Shown piece after piece: positions 25,418-33,277 of a stretch of 64,000 bases of DNA. The DNA comes from Chitinophagales bacterium (GTDB lineage Bacteria > Bacteroidota > Bacteroidia > Chitinophagales > UBA10324). The stretch lies in assembly GCA_013816805.1 (NCBI GenBank), contig JACDDS010000004.1, positions 164,051-228,050 on the forward strand. The letters run 5' to 3'. The stretch's first letter is position 1, and each line of letters opens with the position of its first letter. The notes beneath the pieces were generated by a model, which had not been told where the DNA came from, searched no databases, and was given only the letters and a program-made list of their open reading frames with translations. A program made the position numbers and the translations under genes.

Positions 25418-26032
25418 ATGGAGAAAAAAAGCAGTCGTGGCGAATCCGCTTCTGGGAAAAAACAACCTGTCAAAAAATCATCTGGAATGGGTGAAAAATC
25501 AATGGATCAGGGCGCAATGGATGACCGTTCAATGGAACAAAAATCAATGCTTGAAGAATTTTTTGTTGATGAATTAAAAGATATTTATTGGGCAGAAAAA
25601 CATCTTTTGAAGGTGTTGCCCAGAATGGCTAAAGCAGCCACTACCGATGAATTAAAAGAACTTATGCAGGAACATCTTCAGGTTACACAAGAACAGATTT
25701 CGAGATTAGAGGAAGTATTTGAAATAATGGAAAAGAAGCCACAGGCGAAGAAATGTGAGGCAATGGAAGGAATAACGAAAGAAGGGGAAGGCATTGTTGA
25801 AGATACAGAAGCAGGCTCGCTTACCCGTGATGTTGGACTTATTATGGCTGCTCAAAAAGTAGAGCACTATGAAATTGCCACTTATGGCGGCTTAGCGCAA
25901 CTTGCAAAAACTTTAGGCCGTGAAGATGTGGCAGAACTTCTTGAAGAAACTCTTAATGAAGAAAAAGAAGCTGACGAAAAGCTTACTTCAATTGCTGAGA
26001 ACAACATAAATTTTGATGCCAGCGGGGAATAG
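25418..26032 (+). CDS. YciE/YciF ferroxidase family (DUF892) ferritin-like protein
   Basis: The 204-residue protein has a 40-residue low-complexity N-terminus rich in Lys, Ser and Met-Gln repeats (SMDQGAMDDRSMEQKSM). A four-helix ferritin-like domain of DUF892/YciE-YciF type follows. Helix 1 reads LEEFFVDELKDIYWAEKHLL, and the family's metal-site residues appear in MQEHLQVTQEQISRLEEVFE, AAQKVEHYEIATYGGLAQLA and LLEETLNEEKEADEKL. Relatives respond to osmotic and oxidative stress and may bind a di-iron centre. A hairpin terminator follows at 26051. The low-complexity head resembles the small protein at 26785. Confidence 0.92.
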   Translation: MEKKSSRGESASGKKQPVKKSSGMGEKSMDQGAMDDRSMEQKSMLEEFFVDELKDIYWAEKHLLKVLPRMAKAATTDELKELMQEHLQVTQEQISRLEEVFEIMEKKPQAKKCEAMEGITKEGEGIVEDTEAGSLTRDVGLIMAAQKVEHYEIATYGGLAQLAKTLGREDVAELLEETLNEEKEADEKLTSIAENNINFDASGE

Positions 26033-26690: not shown

Positions 26691-26784
26691 CTCCGATATT
26701 TTGCCCATGTTTAAGTCCCGCATGTTTATTTAAAAAGTTGGTATAATATTTAACTTTAAATCATTCAAACAAAAAATATTTATT

Positions 26785-27000
26785 ATGAAACAAAACGAAA
26801 AGGACCAGCAGTCCGGTAAATCCGGAAGCGGTAAATCTTCTCAGGGCAAAGGCAATGATTCAAAAAAAGGTGGCAGCTCAAAAGGTGGGGGAAGTTCTAA
26901 AAAACAGGGATCCAATGATAGTGACGATGATGATGACTCATCGAAAAAAAAGGGTGGTGAGCGTTCAGGGTCCGGCGCTTCCGGAAACAATAGAAAATAA
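26785..27000 (+). CDS. Small Lys/Ser/Gly-rich low-complexity protein
   Basis: A 71-residue protein made almost only of Lys, Ser, Gly, Asp, Asn and Gln, with no hydrophobic core. It has a KSGSGKSSQGKG head, a SSKGGGSSKK middle, an acidic patch of six Asp (NDSDDDDDSS) and a basic GNNRK end. It is expected to be fully disordered. A well-formed terminator at 27018-27050 and a plausible leader before ATG 26785 suggest a real gene. The composition resembles the larger protein at 30666-32033 and the N-terminus of the YciE-like protein. No function is known; a DNA-binding or desiccation-protective role is only a guess. Confidence 0.65.
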   Translation: MKQNEKDQQSGKSGSGKSSQGKGNDSKKGGSSKGGGSSKKQGSNDSDDDDDSSKKKGGERSGSGASGNNRK

Positions 27001-27263: not shown

Positions 27264-28409
27264 ATGATTAATTCGTTTGAACAACTTCCATTATTATGCT
27301 TTAGCCATTTAAGATGGGATTTTGTATATCAGCGCCCTCAGCATCTTCTATCACGTTTTGCTTTACATCAACCCGTTTTTTATATTGAAGAATCAATCTG
27401 TGATAGTGATCATAATTATTTCGAGACTTACCACCGCGGTGATAATCTGAAGATAATCGTTCCCCATATAGTTAAAGAGGCAACTGTTGAGGATAGTTTA
27501 GCAATTCAAAGAGATTTGCTTGATGAATGGATGGAAAAAGAAATTGAAGATAAATATCTCTTATGGTATTATACTCCTGCTGCTTTAGCATTTACGAAAC
27601 ATCTGTCACCGGAAATAATTATTTATGACTGCATGGATGAACTCTCAGCCTTTTTACATGCACCCGCCGAACTTAAGGCTTTAGAAAATGAATTATTTGA
27701 TCGGGCAGATATCGTTTTTACCGGTGGAAAAAGTTTGTTTGAATCAAAAAGGAAGAAGCATTCGAATGTATATCTTTTTCCCAGCAGCGTGGATAGTGAA
27801 CATTTTAAACATGCCCGGGCTATAAATCAAGAACCTGCTGACCAAATTAAAATCAGCGAACCTAAAGCAGGATTTGCAGGAGTAATTGATGAACGTATGG
27901 ACCTGCATTTATTGAAGGATTTGGCTGATAAATGCCCTGAATGGAATTTTATAATGATCGGACCCGTTGTGAAAATTGATGTTGAGGCGCTTCCTAAAGC
28001 ACCTAACCTGCATTACCTTGGCATGAAAACATATAATGAGCTGCCGGCATATATGTCAGGTTGGAAATTCGGTCTGTTACCGTTTGCATTAAATAAATCA
28101 ACAGCATTTATAAGTCCTACTAAAACCCCGGAATACCTGGCGGCCGGTTTAGAGGTTATTTCTACACCAATTCAAGATGTAGTGAACATTTATGGAAAAA
28201 AGAGGTTAGTATATATAGCTACAAATGGTGAAGAATTTAAAGATTTTCTAAATAAAGAGTTAAGTTTAAAAGAATCCGAAACCTGGAAAAATGAAATAGA
28301 AATATTGCTGGAAGAAAATTCCTGGAATGGTACCTGGGAGAAAATGAACGACATTATATATAAGAAAGAGATATTTAAAACAACAAAAACTGAGCTGCAT
28401 GAAATATGA
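27264..28409 (+). CDS. Glycosyltransferase, family 1-like
   Basis: A 381-residue cytoplasmic protein with a GT-B glycosyltransferase outline. The N-terminal half begins LLCFSHLRWDFVYQRPQHLL, a motif shared by glycosyltransferases encoded beside UDP-galactopyranose mutase. The C-terminal half includes AGFAGVIDERMDLHLL, FIMIGPVVK, HYLGMKTYNELPAYMSGW and SPTKTPEYLAAGLEVI, the donor-binding part. The gene overlaps glf by 11 bases. The pairing suggests a galactofuranosyl- or related transferase working on a cell-surface glycan, but the donor is inferred from the neighbour only. Confidence 0.85.
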   Translation: MINSFEQLPLLCFSHLRWDFVYQRPQHLLSRFALHQPVFYIEESICDSDHNYFETYHRGDNLKIIVPHIVKEATVEDSLAIQRDLLDEWMEKEIEDKYLLWYYTPAALAFTKHLSPEIIIYDCMDELSAFLHAPAELKALENELFDRADIVFTGGKSLFESKRKKHSNVYLFPSSVDSEHFKHARAINQEPADQIKISEPKAGFAGVIDERMDLHLLKDLADKCPEWNFIMIGPVVKIDVEALPKAPNLHYLGMKTYNELPAYMSGWKFGLLPFALNKSTAFISPTKTPEYLAAGLEVISTPIQDVVNIYGKKRLVYIATNGEEFKDFLNKELSLKESETWKNEIEILLEENSWNGTWEKMNDIIYKKEIFKTTKTELHEI

Positions 28410-29556
28410 TTATTTAATTGTGGGAGCCGGTTTCGCCGGCAGTGTATTAGCGGAAAGGCTAGCCTCCATTGCCAATAAAAAAGTTTTATTAATTGATAAA
28501 AGAAACCATATTGGTGGTAATACTTTCGATTTTTATAATGAAGATGGAATTTTAGTTCATAAATATGGCCCTCATATTTTTCATACGAATTCCAAGGATG
28601 TGTTTGTTTATTTGTCACAATTTACCGCATGGCGTCCTTATGAACATAGAGTTCTTGCGAGTGTTGACGGGCAACTGGTTCCTGTACCAATTAATTTAAA
28701 TACCATTAATCAACTTTATGGATTACACCTTACAGGGAAACAGCTTGCAGAGTATTTTGCTTTACAGGCAGTTTCTATACCGCAGGTAAAAAATTCGGAG
28801 GATGTGGTTGTGAGCCAGGTTGGGAGAGAATTGTTTGAAAAATTTTTCCTGGGCTATACAAAAAAGCAGTGGGGTATGGAACCCAAAGATCTTGATCCAA
28901 GTGTAACTGCCCGCTTACCTGTTCGCTATAACAAAGACAACCGGTATTTCACTGATGTATATCAGGCGATGCCTTTACATGGTTTCACTGCACTGTTCAG
29001 TAAGATGCTGGATCATCCTAATATTCACCTTATGTTGAATACGGATTATAAGGATCTTGTCAATATTATTCCACACAAAAAATTAGTCTACACAGGACCT
29101 ATTGATGAATTTTTTGACTATGAATATGGAAAATTGCCTTACCGGTCTATCGATTTTCAATTTCAAACTCTTGAGACGGACCAGTATCAATCTACGGCTA
29201 CTATAAATTTTCCTAATGAACATTTGTACACCCGTATAACTGAGTTTAAGCAGCTAACAGGTCAACAGCACCATAAGACTACAATAGTTTTTGAATATCC
29301 AAACGATGAAGGAGATCCCTATTATCCTGTACCTAAACCTGAAAATACAGAATTATTGAATAAATATCGTTTACTGATTAAGGAAGTGCCTGATACTTAT
29401 TTTGTAGGAAGATTAGCCACGTATAGGTATTATAATATGGACCAGGTAGTAGCACAGGCATTAACACTTTTTAAGAAATTGTTTACGCCTCAGGAAGAAA
29501 AATTAATCTATAGCGAGCGTTTCCACATTGGAACAGTACTTACGGAACCTAAGTAA
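28399..29556 (+). CDS. glf: UDP-galactopyranose mutase
   Basis: Glf converts UDP-galactopyranose to UDP-galactofuranose with reduced FAD. The 385-residue protein has the N-terminal FAD motif DYLIVGAGFAGSVLAERL, the RNHIGGNTFDFY and KYGPHIFHTNSKDVF segments, FFLGYTKKQWGMEPKDLDPS, and the C-terminal FVGRLATYRYYNMDQV segment that completes the flavin site. Length is normal. The start overlaps the end of the glycosyltransferase gene by 11 bases, so the two are translated together and probably feed galactofuranose into a surface polysaccharide. Confidence 0.97.
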   Translation: MKYDYLIVGAGFAGSVLAERLASIANKKVLLIDKRNHIGGNTFDFYNEDGILVHKYGPHIFHTNSKDVFVYLSQFTAWRPYEHRVLASVDGQLVPVPINLNTINQLYGLHLTGKQLAEYFALQAVSIPQVKNSEDVVVSQVGRELFEKFFLGYTKKQWGMEPKDLDPSVTARLPVRYNKDNRYFTDVYQAMPLHGFTALFSKMLDHPNIHLMLNTDYKDLVNIIPHKKLVYTGPIDEFFDYEYGKLPYRSIDFQFQTLETDQYQSTATINFPNEHLYTRITEFKQLTGQQHHKTTIVFEYPNDEGDPYYPVPKPENTELLNKYRLLIKEVPDTYFVGRLATYRYYNMDQVVAQALTLFKKLFTPQEEKLIYSERFHIGTVLTEPK

Positions 29557-29685: not shown

Positions 29686-30018
29686 TCAGTACGAAGTAAT
29701 TTTTCTGCATTCTTCCGCACAACGCTGGCATGCTTCAGAACATCGTTTACAATGCTCCATGTCAATATGATTACTGCATTCTGAAGCACAGTCGTCACAT
29801 ATTTCTGCGCAAATACTGCAGAGCACAGGAGCATATTCACTGCTTCGCATAATCATTTGTGCAGTAAGCATACATGCAGCGCTGCAGTCCTGATCAAGGC
29901 GAATACATCTTGTAAGGTTTGCCATATTACCGGATATACATGCCAAGGCGCATTCTTCGCAGCGCGCAGCACAATCAAGCAATGCTTTCAGCACGTTTTC
30001 ATAGGTCTGGTTTTCCAA
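29686..30018 (-). CDS. Four-helix bundle copper-binding protein (Csp-like)
   Basis: The 110-residue protein contains 17 cysteines in CxxxCxxC-like spacings along four helices (LLDCAARCEECALACIS, RCIRLDQDCSAAC, LCSICAEICDDCASEC, HCKRCSEACQRCAEEC). This is the layout of the copper-storage proteins, where thiolates line the inside of the bundle and hold many Cu(I) ions. No signal peptide is present, so it is a cytosolic form. The frame opens with TTG at 30018; a stop lies at 30031-30033 and no ATG lies between, so TTG is the likely start. It follows the DoxX gene by 17 bases on the same strand. Confidence 0.9.
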   Translation of the reverse strand: MENQTYENVLKALLDCAARCEECALACISGNMANLTRCIRLDQDCSAACMLTAQMIMRSSEYAPVLCSICAEICDDCASECSNHIDMEHCKRCSEACQRCAEECRKITSY

Positions 30019-30035: not shown

Positions 30036-30545
30036 TTATAAAATATTTGCCTCATTATCCATTGGCGCAACGGACGAGCCTCCCTTATAATCGCCATGTG
30101 ATTCATCGGTCTGCCGTGACCTTTTGCTATTTATCAAATAGTAATAAGCTGAAAACTTTCCGGAGCCTTTAATAAATACCATAACTAAAAGAAGCAATAC
30201 TATTAATGATAGAATTAATTCACCTATTCGGGCACCTCCCGTATGCAAATTCACTAAAAAAATTGCACCCAATACAATTGGAATTTGAATAAGTGCTGCC
30301 GCACGCGATGCAAGTCCTGCAACAATTAAAAATCCGCACAGGAGATGGACAATAGATATTACATGCACCAAAACGACACTGTTTATCCCAAAGTTTGTAT
30401 TCAGAATATTTAATAAAAACGACGTATCTGCTATAAAAACAAATCCTTTAAATATTAGAATAAGACCCAAAACTATACGAAATACATCCATCCATGGAGA
30501 ATGATGCTTTTCACTCCAGCTTTCCAATCTATCAAATAGTTTCAT
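30036..30545 (-). CDS. DoxX-like membrane protein
   Basis: A 169-residue membrane protein with four helices (FRIVLGLILIFKGFVFIA, VVLVHVISIVHLLCGFLIVA, AALIQIPIVLGAIFLVN and ELILSLIVLLLLVMVFI), an outline common to DoxX relatives. ATG 30545 is chosen over the longer frame to 30605, whose extra 20 residues look non-coding and run toward a terminator. The hydrophilic tail has RSRQTDESHGDYKGG. It is encoded just upstream of the copper-binding protein, 17 bases apart, so both are probably co-expressed. The function is unknown. Confidence 0.8.
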   Translation of the reverse strand: MKLFDRLESWSEKHHSPWMDVFRIVLGLILIFKGFVFIADTSFLLNILNTNFGINSVVLVHVISIVHLLCGFLIVAGLASRAAALIQIPIVLGAIFLVNLHTGGARIGELILSLIVLLLLVMVFIKGSGKFSAYYYLINSKRSRQTDESHGDYKGGSSVAPMDNEANIL

Positions 30546-30614
30546 GCAGTTTGGTTTAGAATTAATATTGATGCCGTTGTAATAATCTGGTGTGCAAAAT
30601 ACCAAAAAAAATAC

Positions 30615-30648
30615 ATAAAAAAACCCTCTTTGAGGAGGGTTTTTTTAT
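30615..30648 (-). terminator. Bidirectional rho-independent terminator
   Basis: A hairpin CCCTC / GAGGG with a six-base loop is flanked by a run of A on one side and of T on the other (30617-30647), so it works in either direction. It separates the low-complexity gene (stop at 30666) from the DoxX gene. Confidence 0.88.
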
Positions 30649-30665
30649 TAAAGCCTTAGCTCACG

Positions 30666-32033
30666 TTATCTGTTGCGGCGGGATCTTCTGCGCTCTCTGC
30701 GTGAATTCCTATCAGAGTCATTATTATCATCATCCTTCATTCTGGAACCGGAGTTTGAAGAATGGTCATCATATGAATCCATGTCGTTGTTATTTTCATA
30801 TTCATCTTCATCATAGTCGGAAGAGCCGGAGTCTTCAAATCGGCCACTGCGATAAGAACTTTCATCATCCCAATCCTGATGTCCTCTCATTCCTGAACTA
30901 CCTTCATTTCCATAACCCCTGCTACCGTAACCGTACTCTTCACCTTGTCTTCCTCTTCCACCACTCCGTGAGCCATATCGGGATTCTTCATTTTCTCCAC
31001 CACCATAACCTCCCTGGCCGTATCCTGAACCTCCACCAAATCCACCCTGACCAGATCCGGAACCACCCCCATATCCACCTTCACTTCCCTGTCTGCGGCC
31101 GGAACCATAACCACCTTGTCCTCTTTGCGAACCATAGCCACCCTGATCGCGGCCGCCGCCTCTTTGTCCTCTATCCTGATTCCAGCTGGAACCACCACCA
31201 CCTTGCTGCCGTCCACCCTGATCTCCACTATGGCCTGATCCGTATCCACCTTGTCCGTAGCTACCGCCTCTTTCTTGCTGATGTTCGTTCCATCCACCTT
31301 GTTCTCTGCCTTGATTTGATCCTCCGCCCTGGCCATAGCTTCCACCTTGCCCGCTCTGTCCTCTTTCCTGATTCCAGCCACCTTGTTCTCCTCCGCGACC
31401 ACCTTGGCCATAGCTTCCCCCCTGGCCACTTTGACCTCTTTCCTGATTCCAACCGGAACCTCCACCACCTTGTTGCCATCCACCCTGTTCATAACCTGAA
31501 CCATATCCTCCTTGTCCAAATCCACCCCCTTGTCCTCTTTCCTGATTCCAGCCACCCTGACCCGAACCGTATCCACCTCCTTGTGAAAAACCACCTTGAC
31601 CTCTTTGCTGGCCCCATTCTGAACCACTTTCCTGGTTCCGCCCACCTTGTTGCATGCCTTGTGATCCACGTTCACCCTGACTACTTTGGCTTCCCGGCTT
31701 TTCATTCTGTTTATTTCCTGAGCCCTGATTCTTTTGCTTATTGGATTGGGTAGAACCAGAACCTTTTTCCATTTTTGAACCAGTCTCTTTTGACTGCTTG
31801 CCTAAACCAGAATTGAAAGACTGATTTTCTTTTTCAGCATTTTTAAATGGCTGATTTTCACCCTGACCCTTCATTTCATTTTCATTGCGATTTTCTGAGC
31901 TCACATCAAATGAACCTTGTTGCGAGGTAGTTTTTTGACTTTGTTCCTGTTTGTTTTTCTCAGCGCCAGGAACAGTGCTCTTTGAGGATTCATTATCATC
32001 CTCACGGCTTTTTTTGTTCTTATTGTTGCTCAT
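30666..32033 (-). CDS. Gly/Gln/Ser/Arg-rich repetitive low-complexity protein
   Basis: The 455-residue protein has three zones. Residues 1-125 are polar and charged (Lys, Glu, Gln, Ser, Asn). Residues about 128-375 are a repetitive GGYGQGG, GYGSG and GGWNQERGQ region in which WNQ[E/D]RGQ occurs four times. The rest is an acidic Asp/Tyr/Ser stretch ending in a basic tail RRERRRSRRNR. There is no signal peptide or membrane helix. Gly-Tyr-Gln-Arg composition resembles eukaryotic prion-like RNA-binding domains able to phase-separate. ATG 32033 starts a continuous frame. Other frames are also open in the repeat but lack such a coherent composition. Real expression is likely from the clean frame and terminator; function unknown. 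Confidence 0.75.
   Translation of the reverse strand: MSNNKNKKSREDDNESSKSTVPGAEKNKQEQSQKTTSQQGSFDVSSENRNENEMKGQGENQPFKNAEKENQSFNSGLGKQSKETGSKMEKGSGSTQSNKQKNQGSGNKQNEKPGSQSSQGERGSQGMQQGGRNQESGSEWGQQRGQGGFSQGGGYGSGQGGWNQERGQGGGFGQGGYGSGYEQGGWQQGGGGSGWNQERGQSGQGGSYGQGGRGGEQGGWNQERGQSGQGGSYGQGGGSNQGREQGGWNEHQQERGGSYGQGGYGSGHSGDQGGRQQGGGGSSWNQDRGQRGGGRDQGGYGSQRGQGGYGSGRRQGSEGGYGGGSGSGQGGFGGGSGYGQGGYGGGENEESRYGSRSGGRGRQGEEYGYGSRGYGNEGSSGMRGHQDWDDESSYRSGRFEDSGSSDYDEDEYENNNDMDSYDDHSSNSGSRMKDDDNNDSDRNSRRERRRSRRNR
30850..31650. repeat. Degenerate tandem repeat within the low-complexity gene
   Basis: The DNA that encodes the GGWNQERGQ/GGYGQGG region repeats with variations; for example CCTCTTTCCTGATTCCA occurs near 31370, 31437 and 31540, and a close variant near 31168. 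Units vary in length, which suggests growth and loss by slippage or recombination. The repeat keeps several frames open on both strands. Confidence 0.8.
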
Positions 32034-32211
32034 GATTTTAAAATTTTGAGTGATTTAAAATATGTAAAGAGAGTATAATCTTCTATGAATATTATGCCAA
32101 CATGCATACCATTACCATTAAATAAATCTCCTCAATAAGTGTAGAATTTTGTACTCAGGGAAGGGGAATGCTGCACCCAAAATATTAGAATATATTATAA
32201 AGCTTAACTGT

Positions 32212-33150
32212 CTATGCTACCACTTTCATATTGTCGAAAACATCCATTACTTCCTTAACAGCAGTTGCGGAGTCATTGAGCAATTTCATTTCCTCTTCAT
32301 TCAAATCGAGAGGTATAATTTGTTCAATACCATTTCGCCCAAGCTTAACCGGAACTCCGAGATATATATTTTTAAGCCCATATTCACCATTTAACAAAGC
32401 GCAACATGGGTAGATTCTTTTCTCGTCCTTAACAATAGCCTCAACCATTTGTGCTGCTGCAGCACCAGGAGCATACCATGCCGAGGTTCCTAAAAGATTT
32501 ACAATTTCGCCACCTCCCTTTTTCGTTCTATCAATTATTTCGTCCAGCTTATATTTTGCAATCATTTCGGTGACAGGAATTCCCCCTACGGTGGTATAGC
32601 GTGGGAGAGGAACCATGGTGTCTCCATGGCCTCCCATAAGCACAGCCTGTATATCTTTTGGTGAACAATCCAAAGCTTCAGCAAGAAATGCTTTATAGCG
32701 GGCAGTATCCAGGATGCCTGCCATACCAAACACTTTGCTTGATGAAACCTTAGCTGACAGGTAAGCACAGTAAGTCATTACATCCAATGGATTGGAAACA
32801 ACGATGATCACTGTGTCAGGGGAATACTTAATTACCTGCTCGGTTACGCTTTTTACAATTCCTGCATTGGTCGAGATCAAATCATCCCGGCTCATACCCG
32901 GCTTGCGGGGCAGTCCGGATGTTATTACCACAACATTGGAATTGGCAGTTGCCGAGTAATCATTTGTAGTACCCTTTACCCGGGTACCTGACATATTTAT
33001 AGGCGATGTTTGCCAGATATCAAGTGCCTTTCCTTCAGCAACATCTTTTTTTATATCAAGTAATATTACCTCGTTAACATAATCATTTCGGGCTATCACA
33101 TCGGCGCAGGTTGACCCTACATTTCCGGCACCTACTATTGTTACTTTCAT
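32212..33150 (-). CDS. mdh: Malate dehydrogenase
   Basis: This enzyme interconverts malate and oxaloacetate with NAD in the TCA cycle. The 312-residue protein has the NAD motif VTIVGAGNVGSTCADVIA, the substrate-binding loop ITSGLPRKPGMSRDDL, VVSNPLDVMTY, and the catalytic His in LMGGHGDTMVPLPRYTTV. The LDH-like form (length about 310) is standard in Bacteroidota. ATG 33150 gives the normal N-terminus; the extra 14 codons up to 33192 are not supported. It is a single gene facing no close partner. Confidence 0.97.
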   Translation of the reverse strand: MKVTIVGAGNVGSTCADVIARNDYVNEVILLDIKKDVAEGKALDIWQTSPINMSGTRVKGTTNDYSATANSNVVVITSGLPRKPGMSRDDLISTNAGIVKSVTEQVIKYSPDTVIIVVSNPLDVMTYCAYLSAKVSSSKVFGMAGILDTARYKAFLAEALDCSPKDIQAVLMGGHGDTMVPLPRYTTVGGIPVTEMIAKYKLDEIIDRTKKGGGEIVNLLGTSAWYAPGAAAAQMVEAIVKDEKRIYPCCALLNGEYGLKNIYLGVPVKLGRNGIEQIIPLDLNEEEMKLLNDSATAVKEVMDVFDNMKVVA

Positions 33151-33277
33151 GAGAGTGATTTTTTTATCAGAGTGCGTAAAAATAGAAAACAATAATTATC
33201 GGGAGGGAATAACAAATTGAATTTCTAATGTGGAATTAAGGTATAGTTCGATAAAATCAGAAGTCATTTACAGATTG

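Follow-up and report, generated by a model that had tools for sequence, protein, structure and literature searches.

Locus and Gene Neighbourhood

The window (i.e., the whole stretch of 64,000 nucleotides analysed here) holds on its reverse strand, at 30666–32033, a coding sequence that starts with ATG, specifies an intrinsically disordered protein of 455 residues and is present as a single copy in its own genome. This protein is dominated by a few amino acids (G 28%, S 14%, Q 12.5%, E 8%, R 8%), I, L, V and A together accounting for just five residues, and it is built of four modules, all encoded on the reverse strand: a polar and charged head (aa 1–130; 31644–32033), a core of GGYGQGG, GYGSG and GGWNQERGQ repeats (aa 131–388; 30870–31643), an acidic Asp/Tyr/Ser stretch with an NCPR of −0.28 (aa 389–435; 30729–30869) and a basic tail with nine Arg (aa 436–455; 30669–30728). 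Within the core, the motif WNQ[E/D]RGQ occurs four times, starting at residues 162, 195, 220 and 284, along with degenerate copies at 248 (WNEHQQERG) and 186 (WQQ).

This reading frame is real and read as protein, since the probability of meeting no stop in 455 codons is about 5e-13 at the local base composition, the repeat copies align in frame only, with differences concentrated at the third codon position (29/27/74 for the three positions), and the GC3 of the gene (0.33) falls within the range of its neighbours (0.28–0.37). Two other long frames overlap the gene (30590–31753 on the forward strand and 30887–31705 on the reverse strand) and are interpreted as shadows that the repeat casts. 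A eukaryotic origin by gene transfer was rejected, GC3 being that of the neighbours.

Only two orthologs were found, in MAGs of one sister genus of the same family within the Chitinophagales (records JACCZV010000257 and JACCZZ010000333), hereafter G009 and G011. The three genomes, and thus two genera, have a block of six genes in common, which in G011 is split over two contigs. In the window, it comprises the genes for a DUF892 (YciF-type ferritin-like) protein (25418–26032, forward), a previously unlisted disordered protein of 71 aa rich in Gly/Ser/Lys/Asp (26785–27000, forward; 68–72% identical in both relatives), a glycosyltransferase-like protein (27264–28409, forward) and a UDP-galactopyranose mutase-like protein (28399–29556, forward; 85% identical in both relatives), two names that we presume from sequence knowledge rather than from a family search, followed by a DoxX-family membrane protein (30036–30605, reverse; 62–66% identical and adjacent in both relatives, the ATG at 30545 being the start supported by the orthologs) and the 455-aa protein itself. 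The window also has an iron-permease-like gene after DUF892 and the gene of a Csp1-like Cys-rich copper storage protein before DoxX (29686–30018, reverse); in G009 and G011, a GH1/RmlD-type gene takes the place of the Csp1-like one. The side of mdh (32212–33192) is not conserved, the relatives having there what we take from sequence knowledge to be an AI-2E-type permease. The first-pass annotation had located the gene between a copper-binding/DoxX pair and mdh, in a stress-rich region, after describing a charged head, a repeat core with four WNQ[E/D]RGQ copies, an acidic stretch and an Arg-rich end: layout and neighbours are as described, and the stress-type neighbourhood is conserved across two genera.

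Lying outside the conserved block, the copper-storage neighbour is incidental, and a functional link to it was ruled out, as G009 and G011 have their Csp1 homologs on other contigs, the position not being conserved. As a side observation, the Csp1-like gene of the window probably uses a TTG start, and a second copy, 41% identical, lies at G000:C9:92729-93040. The glycosyltransferase–mutase pair, often with a GH1/RmlD gene, occurs, unaccompanied by the 455-aa gene, in other families of the order; clusters of glycosyltransferase, mutase and glycosidase/RmlD-type genes recur in several families (L077 2085-4328, L085 10312-12459, L086 10356-12539, L087 6796-8982), glycosyltransferase and mutase forming one long frame in L083 and L087.

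Upstream Elements and Terminator

A promoter-like element, TTGGCATAATATT (32088–32100, reverse), lies 67 bp before the ATG and is identical in G009 and G011. The 16-mer GAGTACAAAATTCTAC (32141–32156, reverse; also GAGTACNAAATTCTAC), 40 bp further upstream, is found in all three genomes with 0–1 mismatch and the same spacing to TTGGCATAATATT, the flanking DNA being otherwise diverged, and is a candidate activator site. Words of up to 13 nucleotides are common to the upstream regions of the three genes, vs. a maximum of 9 in 2000 shuffles. A sigma-54 (−24/−12) interpretation of TTGGCATAATATT was set aside, its spacing being unfit.

Sites resembling TTGGCATAATATT also precede the DUF892, small-protein and glycosyltransferase genes, at about 43–59 bp from their start codons, the one ahead of the gene of the 71-aa protein being TTGGTATAATATT (26738–26750, 47 bp upstream). 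They suggest that the gene cluster is co-regulated. Across the genome, the 13-mer TTGGCATAATATT is not in excess (22 sites vs. 20 for the reversed control), so that the case for co-regulation rests on the local sites, and GAGTACAAAATTCTAC sites do not outnumber those of the reversed-pattern control either; these counts lend no support to a genome-wide regulon marked by one or the other element. With a relaxed motif, four of the ten exact matches lie 38–67 bp before a gene, including that of a small membrane protein, vs. two among 20 control sites for which a gene begins within 130 bp, a result that is no more than suggestive. The promoter-like motif TTGGCATACTATT also precedes the genes of this 52-aa, lmo0937-like membrane protein and of a 460-aa probable lipoprotein (L024 G000:C1:194837; L029 G000:C4:255441), and a small regulon including both is possible. 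Finally, an intrinsic terminator follows the gene (30615–30648, reverse), with a like hairpin and T run in G009 and G011, and the 455-aa gene is thus probably transcribed alone.

Predicted Disorder, Conserved Head and Variable Core

The 455-aa protein is predicted to be fully disordered. AlphaFold2, run on the single sequence with no alignment, yields a mean pLDDT of 38 with 436 of the 455 residues below 50, a low-confidence helix in the basic tail (residues 440–454) being the sole predicted structure; in the charge–hydropathy analysis, mean hydropathy is 0.289 vs. a folding boundary of 0.416, with every module on the disordered side. Searches of Pfam, NCBIfam, PHROGs and PDB sequences returned no match and no folded domain, and, in Pfam and NCBIfam, no RNA-recognition, cold-shock or zinc-finger domain was found beside the low-complexity region.

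Relatives were sought in 60 related genomes, in samples of 396 genomes of the order and 395 of the class and, by pattern scan, in about 85,000 species genomes. Over the latter set, the full-length search gave no match and the search with the head alignment retrieved the G009 and G011 MAGs and nothing else; the head is absent from every other genome of the order and class samples and had no match in viral contigs. Head identity between the window and its relatives (aa 1–110) amounts to 45–48%, the runs EKNKQEQ and NAEKEN being invariant. Between G009 and G011, dN is 0.12 and dS 1.48 over the first 83 codons; for the head of the window, the values are 0.36 and 1.84 against G009 and, over both relatives, dN is about 0.36 for a dS of 1.6–1.8, which is close to saturation. 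Judging from this comparison of three sequences, with both relatives from metagenome assemblies, the head is under purifying selection, as dN stays far below dS.

The core has fared differently. In G009, the protein has 124 aa, and its head passes in frame straight into the basic tail DDRKSNQKSPQKRGGRSSPNK, the repeat core being absent. In G011, a stop comes right after the head, then GGSGSQQGFGG-type repeats in the same frame with another stop before the contig ends; a second contig carries the remaining end of the gene, beside DoxX. There, two further stops interrupt the repeat frame, and a frameshift precedes an acidic Asp/Tyr stretch (“..YSDYDEDDNSG..”), counterpart of that of the window, and a basic tail. 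The G011 gene thus carries five lesions, i.e., four in-frame stops and one frameshift. Its repeat copies still diverge mostly at synonymous sites, so the damage looks recent, which suggests either a very recent inactivation or an assembly error; since the genomes are metagenome assemblies, single lesions could be due to assembly or strain mixture. The stops in the G011 core fall at glutamine positions (L003 1501-2315, L007), amid repeats that remain synonymous-biased.

Given the five lesions of the G011 gene and the in-frame junction in G009, core loss in the relatives is the simplest reading. The Gly/Tyr/Gln/Arg core is intact in one of the three genomes only, that of the window, and, because the two relatives keep the ends with the core lost or broken, it gives the impression of an optional module gained recently by a small protein of the stress type. 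With no core in the G009 protein and a broken one in G011, the view that the conserved function of the gene resides in the core is not borne out. The first-pass annotation had named frameshifts among close relatives as what would speak against it: such decay is present in the core (broken in G011, absent from G009) and does not extend to the head.

Proposed Function and Alternative Explanations

Hydrophilins are delimited by a glycine content above 6% and a mean hydrophilicity above 1, and the window protein lies above both cut-offs (28.1% and 1.90, respectively). These values, together with the lack of a folded domain, the stress-type neighbours, the conserved polar head and the basic tail, lead us to propose, with a probability of roughly 0.5, that the gene encodes a cytoplasmic, wholly disordered, hydrophilin-like stress protectant with a conserved head, a variable core and an acidic-then-basic tail. 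The head proteins of G009 and G011, which have no intact core, contain 4.8–5.6% glycine, just below the 6% cut-off, so that the hydrophilin label suits the window protein better than its orthologs. Under the proposed mechanism, the gene would be induced by stress and transcribed from a promoter of its own, in parallel with the envelope/stress genes around it (DUF892, small disordered protein, glycosyltransferase/mutase, DoxX), and its product would provide bulk protection of proteins, nucleic acids or membranes as water or redox conditions worsen. The basic tail might make weak contacts with nucleic acid or anionic surfaces, and the core, in the window species, would add multivalent aromatic and Arg stickers that could let the protein condense or gel.

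The main function might instead be that of a condensate scaffold, the core driving FUS-type liquid or gel phase separation and the Arg-rich tail recruiting RNA. The “prion-like” label first given to the protein fits the core in part as to composition, with 73% polar or Gly residues, even aromatics and an abundance of Tyr, Trp and Arg, but not in the classical Q/N-rich sense, which calls for at least 30 Q/N in 80 residues, the maximum here being 24 per 80. Prion-like low-complexity domains are 60–70% polar and 15–20% aromatic, with evenly spaced aromatics acting as primary stickers and Arg as auxiliary ones (PMC9748015). Of the 258 residues of the core, 42% are Gly, 27 are aromatic and 21 are Arg, Lys being absent, and the protein contains 13 [GS]Y[GS] motifs and 13 RG dipeptides; the spacing of aromatics in the core is more regular than in 99.98% of shuffles, an evenness that is partly a by-product of repetition, and the repeat copies diverge in frame with a synonymous bias. 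Such features make condensation by the core plausible in the window species. Yet aromatic content is 10.5%, below the stated range, Pfam and NCBIfam reveal no RNA-binding domain, and G009 and G011 have kept the head with the core missing or broken; hence, on the sequences compared, condensation cannot be a function common to the orthologs, and we regard the scaffold as rather unlikely to be the main role.

Conversely, the core could have arisen by repeat expansion under weak or no selection, on a short functional protein of head and tail, and be bound to decay as in G011. Its intactness in one of three genomes, the four stops and the frameshift of G011 and its in-frame absence from G009 would all fit, whereas none of the 455 codons of the window gene is a stop, even though 223 of them are a single step away from one, and the repeat copies differ far less at nonsynonymous than at synonymous sites (pN 0.19 vs. 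pS 0.48). These two observations suggest that selection acts on the core in the window species, and we consider an origin by neutral or weakly selected expansion unlikely. Less likely still is a nucleic-acid-associated protein, i.e., a nucleoid or RNA protectant binding RNA or DNA through its basic tail and RG-rich core: a basic tail ends all three versions and the window protein has 13 RG and nine GR dipeptides, but its overall NCPR is −0.009 (net charge near zero), the acidic stretch sits beside the tail, and no known binding domain was found in Pfam or NCBIfam. A spurious frame or pseudogene, which low complexity and open frames overlapping on both strands might evoke, is highly improbable in view of the head homology, the dN/dS values, the codon-position bias and the conservation of both the upstream elements and the terminator.

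Significance and Comparison with Known Systems

The most useful feature of the locus is the existence of intact, missing and broken cores in orthologous genes of related bacteria, natural alleles with which the part of the core in stress survival can be tested. It also carries a caution: a low-complexity core is by itself a poor guide to function, the conserved part being here the plain hydrophilic head. Few descriptions exist, to our knowledge, of stand-alone proteins of bacteria that have a sticker-and-spacer core of the eukaryotic type. The window protein may be a stress-regulated condensate former of this stand-alone bacterial kind, having gained FUS-like aromatic/Arg repeats independently of eukaryotes, a proposal that we find improbable on present sequences; if it were true, the core-less and core-broken orthologs of the sister genus would be ready-made controls for the contribution of the core.

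Among known systems, the hydrophilins and LEA-like proteins (e.g., yeast Hsp12), a class defined by high glycine and high hydrophilicity (PMC4190154), share with the 455-aa protein a high glycine content, a very high hydrophilicity, disorder and a stress-type neighbourhood. The likeness rests on properties rather than on sequence homology, and differences exist, the aromatic/Arg core being unusual and the core-less orthologs falling slightly below 6% Gly. The prion-like domains of FUS and hnRNPA1 have the same kind of Gly/Ser/Tyr/Gln core with Arg, even aromatics and [G/S]Y[G/S] and RG motifs, whereas the 455-aa protein lacks an RNA-recognition or other folded domain, has fewer aromatics (10.5%) and no PDB match, and its core is absent or broken in the orthologs. 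The CAHS proteins of tardigrades possess a helical linker and are not known to have Gly/Tyr repeats. As gel-forming disordered stress proteins (PMC10949331), they offer an analogy, with no homology, for the way in which the 455-aa protein may work. Within Bacteroidota, the disordered region of Bacteroides thetaiotaomicron Rho offers a bacterial condensate precedent, combining a charged and a low-complexity subdomain as does the 455-aa protein, but, with its Asn/Gln-rich prion-like part, it belongs to a termination factor that is essential (PMC13269538), while the 455-aa protein stands alone.
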